Source: a bacterium (lineage in GTDB: Bacteria; Patescibacteriota; Microgenomatia; UBA1400; PJMF01). Taken from it: DNA of 33,155 nt. The DNA lies in NCBI GenBank assembly GCA_900299405.1, contig OMJP01000042.1, forward strand, positions 1 through 33,155, given 5' to 3'. The stretch's first letter is position 1. Every line of letters starts with the position of its first letter. Made by a program: the position numbers and the translations under genes. Below are positions 5,492-12,225 of the stretch, piece after piece. Below the pieces are notes generated by a model that saw nothing but the letters and a program-made list of their open reading frames with translations, made no database searches and was not told the DNA's origin.

Positions 5492-6454
5492 TTAGGCCAG
5501 GAAGTTGGTGCGGGCCACTTTTCTGACTTTTTCCTGATAGGCATCAGGATCTTGAGTGTAGAAAATAGGTAGAATTGGTTCGAAGTCAGGATTGAGTTTT
5601 ACTGCTTTATCGATGTCCTGCCACGACATTTTGCCGAAATAAAGTTCTTTCATCGGAAAGTCATTGGCGATCAGAAACTCGACAGTGTCGATCACCCCTT
5701 CGAAGTAGACGAGGTCTTTGGTCGACCCCCCTGGTCGCTGGGTGTCTTTTAGCCCACGTTTTTTACGGAAGGTCATGGCAAAAGCTCGCTCTTTATCACT
5801 GATGTGACTCCTAACAAAATTCCAGACCTCCAGAAAAGAACTCTCCTGCGCCATCTGGGTAGCTAGGTAATTAATCGAGGCTCGATAAGCAAAAGGTTGC
5901 TTTTTGGTCATCAGCGAATTCATGGTTGCCAGCCCCTCTTCAGTTTTGAGATAAGGAGCAAAGCCATAGCGTTTTTTCTTTTTGTACCAAGGCTGCTGCT
6001 GGTAATTGATGCGACGCAAAGCATGAGTGCCGATCTCGTGATAAATCAGACCTAGCAAATCATTTTCGTGAATACTGCAGGGTCGACGTAGCTTGACCAC
6101 ATTGTCGTCAGTTACCGAAGCAATGCTGACGAAATCTGCCGACCAGCGCAGTTCAAAGCGATTATCCAATTTATGTACGCCAAGAAAGTCTTCGATGGCA
6201 GTGTTGACTTTTTCTTCCGAAAGAATCTCCCCCCTACTAGCCTCAAATTCCTCAGGAGTGAAGGTCTCACTAGCTTTTTTTAGGATTTTATTCGCCAGTT
6301 CTAAGTATCTTTCCGAGGGCAAACCTTTTTCCAGCAGTTCATCCTCAGTAAACTCTCTGACGTATTCGAACTGCGGATCGAAACTAGGATCGATCAGAAA
6401 GCGCTCCTTTTCTTGTTGATAGTTGGTGGGAGTTAAATCAGCGATTAAGCTCAT
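5492..6454 (-). CDS. DUF1704 family (MATCAP/'QEGLA'-type) zinc metallopeptidase
   Basis: LLGLIYHEIGTHALRRIN (HExxxH) followed by YLKTEEGLATMNSL and the conserved tail typical of DUF1704/COG3930. Confidence 0.82.
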   Translation of the reverse strand: MSLIADLTPTNYQQEKERFLIDPSFDPQFEYVREFTEDELLEKGLPSERYLELANKILKKASETFTPEEFEASRGEILSEEKVNTAIEDFLGVHKLDNRFELRWSADFVSIASVTDDNVVKLRRPCSIHENDLLGLIYHEIGTHALRRINYQQQPWYKKKKRYGFAPYLKTEEGLATMNSLMTKKQPFAYRASINYLATQMAQESSFLEVWNFVRSHISDKERAFAMTFRKKRGLKDTQRPGGSTKDLVYFEGVIDTVEFLIANDFPMKELYFGKMSWQDIDKAVKLNPDFEPILPIFYTQDPDAYQEKVRKVARTNFLA

Positions 6455-6463
6455 GAATCAAAT

Positions 6464-7744
6464 CTATTGTGGTCTAATTACAAAGCCAGTAAGATCTTTG
6501 CGCCCTATTTCTACCTTTTGCGGACTACGATTGAGTTTTTTGGAAACAATCACCGAAGTCTCGACAGTTTTATTTTTTAGTTTGAACTTCAGCTCGACTA
6601 CGGGGCGCTTGCCTTCACCGGCTACCTGCTGAAACCACAATAAGTCATCCACGTCGATCAGGTCAAGCTCTTTAGCCAAATTACTGGCGATGGCTGAGCG
6701 ATAGCGACCAGTGTTGATTAGGGCCTTGCTTTCTATTTTCTTTTTGCCATCACCATAAAGCGTGATTGGTTCTCCGGTATCCACGATCGGCAGCTCTCCC
6801 TTGTTTTCGATACTGTCGGCAAAGCTTTCGGCAAATAATGCCTGGCCAATTCTGACACCATGATCAGCACTGAGCACATTCAGATCCTGCACCCGCTCCA
6901 GGCGACGACGCAAGCCAGCTCTGTTGGCAGTTTGGATCGACAACCCTGGATAGGCGTTGAGTTCGACCACCATTGGTCCCTTAGTTTTGTGAATAAAAAG
7001 ATCGACTCCGGTAAACACCAGCTCGGCAGCGCGCGCAGCCCTGACGGCAGTTTTCAGGATATCGTTCCAGAATGGAATCTTGATCCCGTTGAGCTTCAAT
7101 TTTGAATCTGGCAGATATTGGATAGGCTCTCTTTTATGAGCCACGCCATAGGTAGTGATGCCGGTAGCAATGTCGATGCCGGTCATGATCGCTCCCTGAC
7201 TGATGTTGGCTCGACCCTCTGATTCCTCGGTTGGCAGGCGTAGTTTAGCCATCACTGGAACGCTATTGAACACCACCACTCTGACATCAGGGGTGCCTTT
7301 GTAAGTGTACTTCAGCAGTTTGGGGTGGATGGGAATTCTTTCCTCGATAATGACGTTGTGATTCGAGCCATGAGTGCTGTACTGACCAGACAAAATGTCC
7401 ATGCACAGCAGCTTGATGTCGTCCAGACTCCAAGTTTCGCCAATCACGTCAGTCCAGTGCTCTTTGTCAGGATGCTGGCGGCGGAAAGCAGTCACACCTT
7501 TGCCAGCGTGGCCGTTGGTGGGTTTGATCACGAAATCTTTGTCTAGCTTATGCCAGTCAAAATCATCGATGTCCTCGGTGGTACCGAGCACGCCGTAGAT
7601 AGCAGCAGTGGGTATGTTGTTGTTTTGCAGCAGCAACTTGGTAGCGTATTTTGATTTACAAATCGATTTCGCTCGGGGAGAGTTCATAGGCACATAGAGC
7701 TGGTTACGGGCATTCATGCCCAAAACGTCTTTTGCTTGAACCAT
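6464..7744 (-). CDS. ATP-grasp RimK-related (alpha-L-glutamate ligase-like) protein fused to a C-terminal retropepsin-like (RimB / 'ATP-dependent zinc protease') domain
   Basis: N-terminal MNARNQLYVPMNSPRAKSICKSKYATKLLLQ, DFVIKPTNGHAGKGV, VIIEERI, PDVRVVVFNSVPVMAKLRLPT, MVVELNAYPGLSIQ (ATP-grasp). C-terminal KIESKALINTGRYRSAIASNLAKEL...VEIGRKDLTGFVIRP (RimB-like). Start placed at ATG 7744, since the 7822 ORF start overlaps the upstream gene. Confidence 0.83.
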   Translation of the reverse strand: MVQAKDVLGMNARNQLYVPMNSPRAKSICKSKYATKLLLQNNNIPTAAIYGVLGTTEDIDDFDWHKLDKDFVIKPTNGHAGKGVTAFRRQHPDKEHWTDVIGETWSLDDIKLLCMDILSGQYSTHGSNHNVIIEERIPIHPKLLKYTYKGTPDVRVVVFNSVPVMAKLRLPTEESEGRANISQGAIMTGIDIATGITTYGVAHKREPIQYLPDSKLKLNGIKIPFWNDILKTAVRAARAAELVFTGVDLFIHKTKGPMVVELNAYPGLSIQTANRAGLRRRLERVQDLNVLSADHGVRIGQALFAESFADSIENKGELPIVDTGEPITLYGDGKKKIESKALINTGRYRSAIASNLAKELDLIDVDDLLWFQQVAGEGKRPVVELKFKLKNKTVETSVIVSKKLNRSPQKVEIGRKDLTGFVIRPQ

Positions 7745-7751
7745 AGTTTCC

Positions 7752-8675
7752 TTACTCTTCTTCGATGATGGACTGGAAGCGAGTTCTTTCCAGCAAGCGC
7801 AAACCAGTGTAGTGTCCGACAATGATGTTCAGGACCGCTACCGAAATCAGGGTCAGTTCCGGGTGAAGTAGTACGGTTTGCTGCACAGCTTCCATATTGA
7901 TGATAAAGGCACACAGTACCGCAATTAAAAGTGTTTCAAAGGTGATACTTAGAGCCTCTTTTTGGGAGCTGAACATCTGGGTGCTCATAAAGTTTTCCGT
8001 CAACAACATGATGATCAGCAGCGGGAAAATGTTGAGGGTTAGAAGTGAGGTAACGTTCAACCAGGAAGAAGCGATCAGCAGCAGAGTGATAAAGAAACTC
8101 ACCACCCACAGCAGCATCGCCGTTCTGGGGAGCAGCGGTAGTTTAAATCTCTTTACTGCTAATCTGGCCAAGGTAGCAGCGATTAGCACGGCAATAAAAA
8201 CAATCACTCCGGTAAAGATCCCTGTCGACACGAAAGCCACTGATAGCACCGCAGGGATGTATACACCAAAGCCTTTGAGTCCCACTACGTGGCGGGCGGT
8301 AGCAATAATAGCGGCAATCAACGGAAATAAAATCAATAAAACAATAATGTTGGCTGGCAGACCGTTGGCGATCGCCTGGCGAATCGCGTGTTGGAGCGGG
8401 TTGTTCCAGCTCAGAGAGCCGATGGGATGCTCATCAAGAAAAGCAGCGAGTTTGCTTTTCTGCTGACCGGTAGTTTCAGTCAGGTCCTGATCTTTTTTCT
8501 CTTGGAGACGTTGGGCAGCCTCTGCAGAAGCTGAAGCCAAGCTGCTTTCGCTGGCCTCCCCTGCTGGAGAAGCATCCAGAGTTTCTTCGGTGGCTGGCTG
8601 CTGGGCGCTAATCACAGGAGCAACGGTCAGCAAAGAACCTCCTACTAACAACAAAGCCAAGAGTAATTTTTTCAT
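7752..8675 (-). CDS. Signal peptide plus 7-transmembrane protein of the '7TM transglutaminase-associated' family, lacking the transglutaminase domain
   Basis: MKKLLLALLLVGGSLLTVAPVISAQQ signal; Ala/Glu/Ser-rich linker; then ~7 hydrophobic helices including ARHVVGLKGFGVYIPAVLSVAF. Immediately upstream of the RimK-related gene. Start set at ATG 8675. Confidence 0.7.
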   Translation of the reverse strand: MKKLLLALLLVGGSLLTVAPVISAQQPATEETLDASPAGEASESSLASASAEAAQRLQEKKDQDLTETTGQQKSKLAAFLDEHPIGSLSWNNPLQHAIRQAIANGLPANIIVLLILFPLIAAIIATARHVVGLKGFGVYIPAVLSVAFVSTGIFTGVIVFIAVLIAATLARLAVKRFKLPLLPRTAMLLWVVSFFITLLLIASSWLNVTSLLTLNIFPLLIIMLLTENFMSTQMFSSQKEALSITFETLLIAVLCAFIINMEAVQQTVLLHPELTLISVAVLNIIVGHYTGLRLLERTRFQSIIEEE

Positions 8676-9131: not shown

Positions 9132-10436
9132 CTACTTCAAGAGCTGCTTGGTATGTCGCCTGGAGTATTGTTTTTTGGAAAAGCGGTGGGCTTCATCGCG
9201 GACCTGCTGTGCTAGCTTGAGGGCGGGATGATTCTTGTCCAGTTTTAGGACTTCGTAATCGATTTTTCTGCCATCCTGGTCGGTGGGAATGATGAGTCGG
9301 TCGGGATTCTTGGCAATGCCGATGACTGGGTTGTCCCACTGCCAATTGCTGAGAGCGGCTCTGATTTGTCCCTTTCCCCCATCGACAATGACGAGGTCGG
9401 GCTTGTCCCACTCGGGATGATTTTGCCTTCTCGCCAGCGCTTCTTTCATCATTTGGTAATCGTTGGGAGTGTCGAGAGTGATGATGTTGTAGAGTCGGTA
9501 TTCTTCTTTATCTGCCCGCCCATCGGTAAAAACCACCTGAGCTACAGCAGCGTTTTTTCCCTGAATATTACTGACATCGTAGCCCTCGATGCGCTTGAGC
9601 TTTTTGCTTTTCGGCCAGGCGAGGTAGGTTTGTAGGATTTTTTGTAGCTCCACCATGCCTTGTTGCGCTTGTTGCAAACCAAAGCTGGGTAGCACCAAAT
9701 CAGGCGACAGGCGGTATTGTTTACTAGTAACTTCTTCTATCAGTTGTACTCGCTCTTTATACAGCTGAGCCTTTTCAAATTGTTGCTTGTCGGCCGCCTG
9801 TTTCATTTTGGTGATTAAATCTTTGAGTACGACTTTCTTTTTGCCTCTTAAAAACAGAATTAGAGACTCGATGTTTTCCCGATAGTCTTTTTCGCTAATT
9901 TCACCAACGCAGGCTCCGGGACAGAGCTCCAGGTGGTGATAAAAACATGCCCGATCGCCATCAGGATCGCTGCACCAAGGGAAAATCTTACGGGCGATTT
10001 TTAGCACTTCGTTCAGTTTTACTCCGCTGGGAAAGGGTCCCAAGATCGTGCCTTTAGGTTTTTCTTTGACGAGGTCGGTTTTTCTTTTTTTCAAAACTCT
10101 GGGGAATTTTTCGGCAGTGATGACTAAATAAATCGGGGTTTTGTCATCTTTGAGTCTGATGTTGTAAAAAGGCTGATGGGCTCGAATCAACTCTGCCTCA
10201 ATCAACAGGGCTTCCAGCTCGCTGGACAAGATCTCGAACTCGACTTTTTCTGCAGTCTGCACCATTTTGGCGATGCGGTTGCTGAGGCGTTTCACCTGAG
10301 TATAGGTTTGTAATCTTTTCTTGAGATTTTTGGCTTTGCCGACGTAGAGAATATTATTTTTTTCGTCGAAGAACGAGTAAACTCCCGGCTCCGAGGGCCA
10401 AGAGGATGAAGCCCGCGCCCAAGCCAATGATGACAT
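9132..10436 (-). CDS. uvrC: UvrABC system protein C, lacking the C-terminal (HhH)2 domain
   Basis: GIY-YIG PGVYSFFDEKNNILYVGKAKNLKKRL; UVR motif KQQFEKAQLYKERV; GYDVSNIQGKNAAVAQVVF; DLVIVDGGKGQIRAAL; ends RDEAHRFSKKQYSRRHTKQLLK. Start is either ATG 10436 or ATG 10496. Confidence 0.92.
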   Translation of the reverse strand: MSSLAWARASSSWPSEPGVYSFFDEKNNILYVGKAKNLKKRLQTYTQVKRLSNRIAKMVQTAEKVEFEILSSELEALLIEAELIRAHQPFYNIRLKDDKTPIYLVITAEKFPRVLKKRKTDLVKEKPKGTILGPFPSGVKLNEVLKIARKIFPWCSDPDGDRACFYHHLELCPGACVGEISEKDYRENIESLILFLRGKKKVVLKDLITKMKQAADKQQFEKAQLYKERVQLIEEVTSKQYRLSPDLVLPSFGLQQAQQGMVELQKILQTYLAWPKSKKLKRIEGYDVSNIQGKNAAVAQVVFTDGRADKEEYRLYNIITLDTPNDYQMMKEALARRQNHPEWDKPDLVIVDGGKGQIRAALSNWQWDNPVIGIAKNPDRLIIPTDQDGRKIDYEVLKLDKNHPALKLAQQVRDEAHRFSKKQYSRRHTKQLLK

Positions 10437-12225
10437 ACGGTCTGGCGATGTATTGGACGAAGTACGGGGCGTTGGTGATGGTGGTGTCTTGTTCACTGAC
10501 TGTTCTTTCTCCGACTAGCACTTTGACATGGAGCTGATCTTCAGCTGGCCAGCCTCCCTGCGTATTATAGACAAAGATTGGCACGGTGGCTGACTGATAA
10601 GGCAGCAACGCTGATAACTGGTTGTTACCAAAGGTGCGGATTTGTGAGTTTTCTGCCGAGAGTTCGAAAGAAATATCATACCAGGCGGCTCCTGTGGGGT
10701 TATCTAGTTTGACTTCGTAAAAACCCGGCAAGGTAGACACAGCGGTTTCTCGAGGCAGAACTTTGGCACTGACGTCTGGTTGTTGGTTGGGAAACAGAGT
10801 GGCAAACTCCACTTCCAGACTTTTTTCTTGATGATCAGCAGTTTTGTAGGAGCCGGCAGGATATGGCAAAGTACTAGAGCGGCCATTGATTGCCAGCACG
10901 ATATGATTGAGGTCGAACTGGTTGAAGTAATCTACTCCGCCGGTGGTATTGCCCCAGGTCGGATCAACTGGTTGCCAGAGTTGTTTTTCTTCGTTCCAGT
11001 ATTCTGGCCAAGCATGCAGGATGTCGTCTACCAAACTGAGGGGACGCAAGGCACTGTTATTGGTGTGGGCATAGCCGCTGACTACTCTGGCGGGAATGTT
11101 GTTGGCTCTCGCCAGTGCCACAAACAGGTCAGAGAATTCTTGGCAGACAGCTAGCTCAGGATTTTCCAAAGCTGAGGCAGCGCCCAGTCTTTGCAGGTCT
11201 TCGACAGAATTTACTTCGGCATACTCCAGATTGTTGGTAACGTAGTTATAGATATCGCTGGGGGTGGTGTATTGTGCAGCCAGTTCTTTGATATTGGGGT
11301 CAGTGATTTCCCAGTATGGTTGGGGCAAGACGTGAAACTGCTGGGGTGGCGAGACGGGCACCATGCCATTCGGTTCGATGGTCAGCAAAGCCATGGCAGA
11401 GACAGAGACTGTTTGGGCAGTGTTGCCGCCCATATAAAAAGTGGCGATCCAGTTACCGTCTTCATCCAGCTCTATTTCTCTAGGTTTGGGATCGATGCTT
11501 TCGTAATTCATTCTTTGGTAGGGAGTGTCGGGCGGCAGCGCCACCTGCAGCAGTACTGGTTGGGAGTCGTTGTTTTCCAGGAAATATTTAAAGTCCATGG
11601 CAAAAATCTGCTGCCAGCCATAGATCGCAGACACACCCTCACCATGAAGATTGCTAAAAGTTAATCTGATTTGATTGCCGCTGTGATTGACAACGAAATT
11701 GTCTGAAGGCGTCACTCTGGTTGGTTGGCCGTAGTTCAGTGGAGTGGCCAAAGTGACTGTCACGGAGTCGTATTGCGAAGCATCGGCTTGTTTGGGTACC
11801 GCCACCTCCAGCACCTGCCCGTTGATTTGGGCCAGGTCAGGATTGAGATAAGTGATGGTGAACGTTCTGCTTTTTCCCTCCCCCACTAGTTGGTCATCAA
11901 AAGTGATACCGATATTGGTTTGGTTGTCGGTGTGGGTTACCTCGGCAGGAATTTCTCCCCCACTATCAGAAACTCTGACACTAGTGATGCTAGGAGAGCT
12001 AATTCTCAAACCATGACGACTGATGTAATAAGTGGGAGTGAGGTTCTCAATCGTGAAAGTATGCTGCACCAAAGTATCGCCATTGGTTTGGACCGTGTAG
12101 CTACTCTGCAGCGTATTGGCAAAGAATTTTTCCTGCGATTCCTGGGCGGAAATATTTTTAGAAACAGAAAAAATGAAGTAAAAAAATAAAAAAATTCCAA
12201 AAATAAATTTTATAGTTTTTTTCAT
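10354..12225 (-). CDS. Secreted/membrane-anchored transglutaminase-like cysteine protein
   Basis: N-terminal hydrophobic segment; Cys-His-Asp motifs LAVCQEFSDLFVALARANNIPARVVSGYA, LHAWPEYWNEE and WQPVDPTW; C-terminal TM helix plus RRKK. Confidence 0.88.
   Translation of the reverse strand: MKKTIKFIFGIFLFFYFIFSVSKNISAQESQEKFFANTLQSSYTVQTNGDTLVQHTFTIENLTPTYYISRHGLRISSPSITSVRVSDSGGEIPAEVTHTDNQTNIGITFDDQLVGEGKSRTFTITYLNPDLAQINGQVLEVAVPKQADASQYDSVTVTLATPLNYGQPTRVTPSDNFVVNHSGNQIRLTFSNLHGEGVSAIYGWQQIFAMDFKYFLENNDSQPVLLQVALPPDTPYQRMNYESIDPKPREIELDEDGNWIATFYMGGNTAQTVSVSAMALLTIEPNGMVPVSPPQQFHVLPQPYWEITDPNIKELAAQYTTPSDIYNYVTNNLEYAEVNSVEDLQRLGAASALENPELAVCQEFSDLFVALARANNIPARVVSGYAHTNNSALRPLSLVDDILHAWPEYWNEEKQLWQPVDPTWGNTTGGVDYFNQFDLNHIVLAINGRSSTLPYPAGSYKTADHQEKSLEVEFATLFPNQQPDVSAKVLPRETAVSTLPGFYEVKLDNPTGAAWYDISFELSAENSQIRTFGNNQLSALLPYQSATVPIFVYNTQGGWPAEDQLHVKVLVGERTVSEQDTTITNAPYFVQYIARPYVIIGLGAGFILLALGAGSLLVLRRKK

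Follow-up and report, generated by a model that had tools for sequence, protein, structure and literature searches.

A RimK/RloC-like ATP-grasp ligase of Patescibacteria in which a MATCAP carboxypeptidase appears to have taken the place of the fused retropepsin eraser

A 33,155-nucleotide contig from a patescibacterial genome (OMJP01000042.1; hereafter the window) carries three genes arranged head to tail on its minus strand, separated by only 7 and 9 bp, that encode a seven-transmembrane-helix (7TM) protein, a fusion of an ATP-grasp ligase to a retropepsin domain, and a homologue of the zinc metallo-carboxypeptidase MATCAP (DUF1704). This set appears to represent a ligase of the rlo/rim type whose original retropepsin eraser has been replaced by the MATCAP carboxypeptidase. 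On balance we favor, with somewhat better than even confidence, a pair of cytosolic enzymes, writer and eraser, that work at the membrane on the C-terminal tail of a protein. The likeliest acceptor of the ligase would be the 7TM partner, at its Glu-Glu end, a proposal to which we give slightly less than an even chance.

For the enzymatic activities, glutamate specificity, acceptor and physiological role of this system we infer the following scheme. The ATP-grasp enzyme, with its RimK/ArgX fold, would spend ATP to extend a C-terminal carboxylate with amino acids, most likely L-glutamate, and MATCAP, as a zinc carboxypeptidase, would take off C-terminal residues and reset the tail. The 7TM protein would bring the ligase to the membrane and would present the Glu-Glu end as probable acceptor. 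In the ancestor, whose arrangement is still that of most relatives, the fused RimB/RloA-like retropepsin would have been the eraser; following the gain of MATCAP, the retropepsin would have lost its catalytic and polyglutamate-contacting residues, and MATCAP would have taken over. By analogy to rlo, the process may serve under osmotic stress or stress on the envelope. On such a scheme, the MATCAP/DUF1704 family would acquire a functional setting in bacteria, as the enzyme that undoes what a RimK-like ligase adds, and two eraser chemistries, an aspartic endopeptidase and a zinc exopeptidase, would be seen swapped on one ligase. The scheme names a concrete acceptor that is directly testable by peptide assay, and proposes partners and a function for the rlo-type operons, which are poorly understood.

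The ligase and its two erasers

The first gene encodes an RloB-like 7TM protein of 307 aa (7752..8675, minus strand; PF14402, 9.4e-28), the second the ATP-grasp/retropepsin fusion of 426 aa (6464..7744, minus strand, ATG start), and the third the MATCAP homologue of 320 aa, which lacks a signal peptide (5492..6454, minus strand; PF08014, 6.3e-27). The matches to PF14402 (97.8 bits, cut-off 25), PF14397 and PF08014 (94.9 bits, cut-off 27) each exceed the curated threshold. A longer open reading frame (ORF) for the fusion, starting at TTG, was rejected, as alignment with relatives gives it no support. The initial annotation of this DNA had described three co-directional, tightly packed genes, including a 7TM protein with a signal peptide and a DUF1704 enzyme with an HExxxH motif, and this description is borne out.

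The ligase domain (6797..7744, minus strand, residues 1-316; PF14397, 1.1e-57) is RloC/RimK-like. Its predicted structure (predicted local distance difference test, pLDDT, 90) is closest to ArgX and RimK, with Z scores of 17-18, and also resembles cyanophycin synthetase folds; the structure matches obtained with VIA-align and Foldseek are to the ATP-grasp domain alone, with residues 3-309 well covered. Members of the ArgX and RimK families attach amino acids to the C-termini of carrier proteins or ribosomal protein S6. Every group of loci conserves residues K74, D153, R169, D248, E261 and N263; E134 is conserved as well. The RimK relationship claimed in the initial annotation holds in the modeled structure, and the catalytic residues, whose degeneration would have spoken against a working ligase, are invariant across groups. 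RimK adds glutamate onto the C-terminus of S6, and is stimulated in this by RimB, a protease that also cleaves polyglutamate (PMC11957791).

The MATCAP homologue retains the HEIGTH zinc-binding and catalytic motif (6023..6040, minus strand), identical to that of human MATCAP and invariant as HExxTH in 22 of 22 aligned relatives, and a TEEG motif bearing the third zinc ligand (5933..5944, minus strand), likewise invariant in 22 of 22; EEG is the third-ligand motif of the MATCAP/TMCP proteins (PMC10499314). The HExxxH motif and the third-ligand glutamate motif are kept by every window-clade and fused MATCAP. The protein matches human MATCAP (7z5g) over its full length with 30% identity (profile, 2.9e-78), and its AlphaFold model (pLDDT 95.6) is predicted to share the human fold (Foldseek E 6.3e-21, TM score 0.88), in line with the relationship suggested earlier. 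Human TMCP1 and TMCP2 act on tubulin tails, from which they take off C-terminal residues and whose polyglutamate chains they shorten (PMC10499314).

The C-terminal domain of the fusion protein (6467..6781, minus strand, about residues 322-426) is RimB/RloA-like by alignment with intact relatives, which match the RloA structures 9g58 and 9g59. At its active site, the DTG triplet of these relatives is replaced by N344-T345-G346 (INTG; 6707..6715, minus strand). Since a D-to-N change, D48N, is the published dead control of RloA (PMC12239564), the fused retropepsin cannot serve as a working eraser in the window. The initial annotation had recognized the RimB-like domain but overlooked the loss of its catalytic aspartate. 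At E 0.01, profile PF05618 detected nothing in the genome or the family of the window, the window's own domain included, and rescue of the dead domain by a second retropepsin was rejected, as no PF05618 match was found elsewhere in the family. RloA touches polyglutamate through K46, R114 and R137 (PMC12239564), which by our own mapping, from K-x-D and R-23-R spacing, correspond to positions 342, 380 and 403 of the window protein. Intact proteins carry K/R/R there in 86/96/90% of cases, the window clade in 0/11/37% and the fusion group in 25/0/0%.

The association of these genes extends far beyond one genome. Named genomes with full-length matches to the window MATCAP belong to Candidatus Pacebacteria and related Patescibacteria, and the order 7TM, ligase, MATCAP is found in all 21 that match over essentially the whole query. 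The 7TM gene is carried by 37 of 38 relatives, and the ligase-retropepsin gene comes next wherever the contig goes on. Phylum-wide, among a final set of 175 related ATP-grasp/retropepsin proteins, a 7TM gene lies at most 200 bp upstream of the ligase at 168 loci, and MATCAP is adjacent to the ligase-retropepsin gene at 32 and fused into the same polypeptide at 24. The fused proteins, of about 770-840 aa, hold MATCAP as their C-terminal third and occur at two separate tree positions. Genome tallies from the listed tables agree: the ligase-retropepsin gene is present in 17 of 18 genomes with MATCAP versus 64 of 215 others within the class, and in 51 of 63 versus 35 of 223 in the phylum sample. 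This gene arrangement is not due to chance. The initial annotation had held that restriction of the pair to one genome would count against it; co-occurrence instead holds across the phylum, up to gene fusion.

The state of the retropepsin follows the presence of MATCAP. Among the first 35 loci with a full ligase-retropepsin fusion, an adjacent MATCAP went with an altered DTG motif in 22 of 22 cases, and 12 of the 13 loci lacking one had the motif intact. A tree built on the ligase domain alone, before the survey was widened to the phylum, placed every altered motif in one clade of 27. In the final set, D[TS]G is intact in 118 of 119 proteins with no MATCAP in cis, and lost in 26 of 32 with an adjacent MATCAP (6 intact) and in 22 of 24 with a fused one (2 intact), or 48 of the 56 with MATCAP in cis. 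Loss occurred in at least three lineages, all with MATCAP: the window clade (27 rows, lost throughout except in L048), a 23-row clade that is nearly all fused, and the pair L234/L240. Parsimony required 10 changes for MATCAP and 6 for loss of the retropepsin motif. The only loss without MATCAP in cis is L050, whose genome (G007) encodes a MATCAP of the same subfamily elsewhere, as does the genome (G004) of its sister L048.

The fate of the inactivated domain differs between lineages. In the window clade it evolves no faster than intact domains at equal ligase identity, and relaxed evolution was therefore rejected; it has, moreover, a new invariant residue, Arg347, in 27 of 27 proteins. Nonsynonymous divergence (dN) of the window domain from close relatives is 0.19-0.21, and synonymous divergence (dS) is saturated, which makes the dN/dS ratio unusable. 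By analogy to RimB and RimK, the window-clade domain, a conserved pseudoprotease, is perhaps a ligase activator, and a retained stimulating role of this kind would account for its conservation. In the fusion group the domain evolves much faster than intact ones and, on the favored reading, is decaying.

The Glu-Glu tail of the 7TM protein and alternative explanations

Hydropathy and the positive-inside pattern indicate that the 7TM protein has a signal peptide (about residues 1-25), an acidic exported segment of about 70 aa and seven transmembrane helices. A Halobacterium sp. DL1 plasmid encodes an unannotated 589-aa protein (L399:3161-4930) in which the 7TM end runs directly into an ATP-grasp domain. 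This junction puts the 7TM C-terminus in the cytosol with the ligase, and the hydropathy and charge distribution of the window protein concur. The predicted cytosolic tail, RLLERTRFQSIIEEE (7755..7799, minus strand), ends in EEE (7755-7763), the candidate acceptor. Tails ending in Glu-Glu are found at 20 of 27 loci of the window clade and at 23 of 25 fusion-group loci (43/52 together); they occur at 3 of 114 loci without MATCAP, where 58 end in lysine or arginine, and in 4 of 558 other, background ORFs. At the six loci with an adjacent MATCAP and an intact retropepsin, no tail ends in Glu-Glu. A lysine variant of S6, RpsF-D139K, was used as the non-modifiable form with RimK (PMC11957791), and is consistent with the basic tails of MATCAP-less lineages not being acceptors. 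We infer from this co-variation that the 7TM tail is modified. The initial annotation had cast the 7TM protein as a tether of the pair; with its Glu-Glu tail as candidate acceptor, the protein looks like more than that. The writer/eraser pair itself, also proposed there, is strengthened by the wide co-occurrence, the fusions and the invariant ligase residues, with the correction that the fused retropepsin cannot be the eraser here.

Several observations weigh against this reading. The curated cut-offs of TIGR02291 (RloC-type alpha-L-glutamate ligase-like; 6.6e-67, 225.7 bits for the ligase, cut-off 314.2), TIGR00768 and TIGR02421 (QEGLA; 90.6 bits for MATCAP, cut-off 338.65) are all unreached, so that family membership gives no amino-acid specificity. 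The 7TM tails of L027, L031, L034, L035 and L042 lack Glu-Glu, and at L048 and L050, where the retropepsin motif is altered and MATCAP lies outside the operon, they end in lysine. The six loci that combine an adjacent MATCAP with an intact retropepsin, and whose tails do not end in glutamate, mean that the eraser swap is not obligatory. Finally, an independent-pairs sign test found 2-4 pairs in the same direction and 0 in the opposite (p 0.125-0.5) and is underpowered; the events are too few for significance by independent contrasts, and most of the counts reflect shared inheritance.

The same enzymes might instead run a free polymer cycle: soluble poly-alpha-glutamate built by the ligase would be sensed or exported by the 7TM protein, MATCAP would recover glutamate from the ends of the chains, and the tail would be at most a primer. 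RimK does make free poly-alpha-glutamate, boosted by RimB (PMC11957791), the authors of the rlo study weigh free polyglutamate and osmotic roles (PMC12239564), and the resemblance of the ligase to RimK and cyanophycin synthetase folds fits as well; the cycle leaves the Glu-Glu tail in MATCAP lineages unexplained, however, and we consider it unlikely. Rather less likely still is that MATCAP is a maturation enzyme that trims one residue once to expose Glu-Glu, after which the ligase adds a different group, in a sequential and irreversible process. Human MATCAP takes the C-terminal tyrosine off alpha-tubulin as a first step before other tail changes (PMC10499314), but the last codons of the 7TM gene already specify Glu-Glu, so that no trimming is needed to expose it, and the coincidence of MATCAP gain with loss of the retropepsin eraser points to removal of residues that the ligase has added.

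The substrate might also be an unrelated one, such as another cytosolic C-terminus, a cell-wall peptide or a sugar-linked product, with the 7TM tail co-varying for another reason such as ligase docking. ATP-grasp enzymes are diverse, PF14397 is named for sugar-transfer contexts, and S6, the RimK target, was rejected as a shared substrate, the S6 ends of relatives being varied (AKE, IED, TQE, KKQ, VRV) with no common Glu-Glu. Against this stands the three-way co-variation of MATCAP, retropepsin loss and Glu-Glu tail, and we hold such a substrate to be improbable, a shade more so than a maturation enzyme. Coincidence, by which the genes hitch-hike in operons of streamlined genomes and the Glu-Glu codons are the Shine-Dalgarno site of the ligase gene, gains some color from the purine-rich GAAGAG just 5' of the ligase start in the window. 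Glu-Glu is nevertheless retained in 6 of 7 fusion loci with 7TM-ligase gaps of at least 30 bp (32-440 bp) and beside separate AGGAGG-like sites, which makes a Shine-Dalgarno origin weak and disfavors it; tails at intact-retropepsin loci with equally short gaps end in lysine or arginine, and MATCAP-ligase fusions are no hitch-hiking. We regard coincidence as very improbable.

Known systems and the origin of eukaryotic MATCAP

The rloABC operon of Pseudomonas aeruginosa encodes a retropepsin (RloA), an inactive transglutaminase joined to a 7TM domain (RloB) and an ATP-grasp enzyme (RloC). The window set resembles it in having a 7TM gene directly upstream of an RloC-like ATP-grasp gene and a retropepsin of the RloA/RimB kind. 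RloA is secreted, whereas the window retropepsin is fused to the ligase, cytosolic and dead; rlo has no MATCAP; and the window 7TM protein lacks the transglutaminase domain, PF14400 finding no match in it or in two relatives although it does in a Legionella control. The window protein scores 54.8 bits with the RloB model NF052267, below the cut-off of 900. On an rlo-like Legionella adelaidensis plasmid the order is RimK/LysX-family protein, inactive transglutaminase-7TM, ligase, and RloB ends in LAKARS rather than Glu-Glu. The proteobacterial RimK-7TM-RimB cluster named in the initial annotation is therefore a related setting but one with a different arrangement.

RimK/RimB poly-glutamylation of S6 shares the ATP-grasp fold and a retropepsin partner, and a RimBK hybrid also fuses the two (PMC11957791), with the retropepsin N-terminal and active there but C-terminal and inactive in the window; the window set has, in addition, MATCAP and a membrane partner, and S6 in these genomes lacks a common Glu-Glu end. 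Outside the phylum, QEGLA/DUF1704 genes are followed by glutathione-synthetase-like (GSH-S-type) ATP-grasp genes, with FGase or AstE/AspA neighbors, as annotation or Pfam showed at loci from Mesorhizobium, Aequorivita, Nitrosomonas, Gammaproteobacteria and Myxococcota. DUF1704 thus adjoins GSH-S-type ATP-grasp genes in Bacteroidota, Pseudomonadota and Myxococcota, and a DUF1704 protein with an ATP-grasp partner is a recurrent theme. In these operons (Mesorhizobium, Flavobacteriia, Gammaproteobacteria, Myxococcota), by contrast, DUF1704 is about 615 aa and distant, the ATP-grasp family is another one, and no 7TM or retropepsin gene was seen in the stretches concerned. No earlier description of DUF1704-ATP-grasp neighborhoods was found in the open literature, a search that did not extend to a 2009 comparative paper on amidoligases (10.1039/b917682a).

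Eukaryotic MATCAP/TMCP1-TMCP2 have the same metal motifs and, as predicted, the same fold as the window protein, which differs in being bacterial and the operon or fusion partner of a ligase, with no tubulin at hand; the set suggests a bacterial version of the eukaryotic tubulin write-and-erase system. Of the 83 MATCAP sequences compared, those of the window-clade type come nearest to human MATCAP (best 35% identity, 1e-61), and the fused, QEGLA and other Candidate Phyla Radiation types are far more distant from it (best about 1e-19). The human protein is nested within a Pacebacteria-type clade (19 rows, support 100/99.9) with L024 and L040, as sister to L024 (98/83), and a tree holding the bacterial sequences together without it was rejected (p 0.029). 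With one eukaryotic sequence in the tree, on a long branch, this nesting is a lead, and transfer could have run in either direction. That eukaryotes acquired MATCAP/TMCP by gene transfer from bacteria of this lineage, in which MATCAP would already have opposed an ATP-grasp ligase on a Glu-Glu tail, we consider a doubtful proposal; were it true, the writing and erasing of tubulin tails would have had a forerunner in bacteria, acting on a membrane protein. The window set in any case makes the origin of the tubulin-tail carboxypeptidases phylogenetically testable. A Woesearchaeota archaeon encodes a 361-aa MATCAP (L324:3539-4621), 34% identical to the window's over residues 98-298, that falls outside the Pacebacteria clade.

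Variant loci and genomic surroundings

Other loci depart from the window's plan. In family f68 (L239, L241-L243, L246-L249 and L264) the retropepsin retains DTG but its flanks are altered (FMDTG[IV]), and nearly all members have a MATCAP of about 390 aa located 3.6-7.4 kb downstream on the opposite strand. Two ligase-retropepsin proteins of 854-921 aa (L268:3411-6173 and L270:3218-5779) retain DTG and carry a C-terminal extension, which in L268 holds a second ATP-grasp domain. In families without MATCAP (L032, L038, L039, L043, L044, L052 and L171), one to three additional genes, either RimK-like or encoding ATP-grasp-like proteins of about 480 aa, often come after the 7TM-ligase pair, and one member genome of the window's family has a second RimK-like ATP-grasp gene directly 3' of MATCAP (L042:5759-6733). 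Two intact-retropepsin loci encode possible distant or degenerate DUF1704 relatives, a 683-aa protein with HEVEGH and a weak match to the MATCAP profile (L176:357-2405) and a 595-aa protein similar by eye without the motif (L023:5988-7772).

In the window, which belongs to a 686-kb genome that is 71% complete, the set is followed on its 3' side by MnmA and preceded on its 5' side by genes for a small holin-like membrane protein, UvrC and an exported transglutaminase-like protein. The last of these (10354-12225) is predicted to be membrane-anchored, has an apparently intact Cys-His-Asp triad (AVCQEF, ILHAWPE, VDPTW), and in most members of the window's family its gene lies three genes 5' of that for the 7TM protein.

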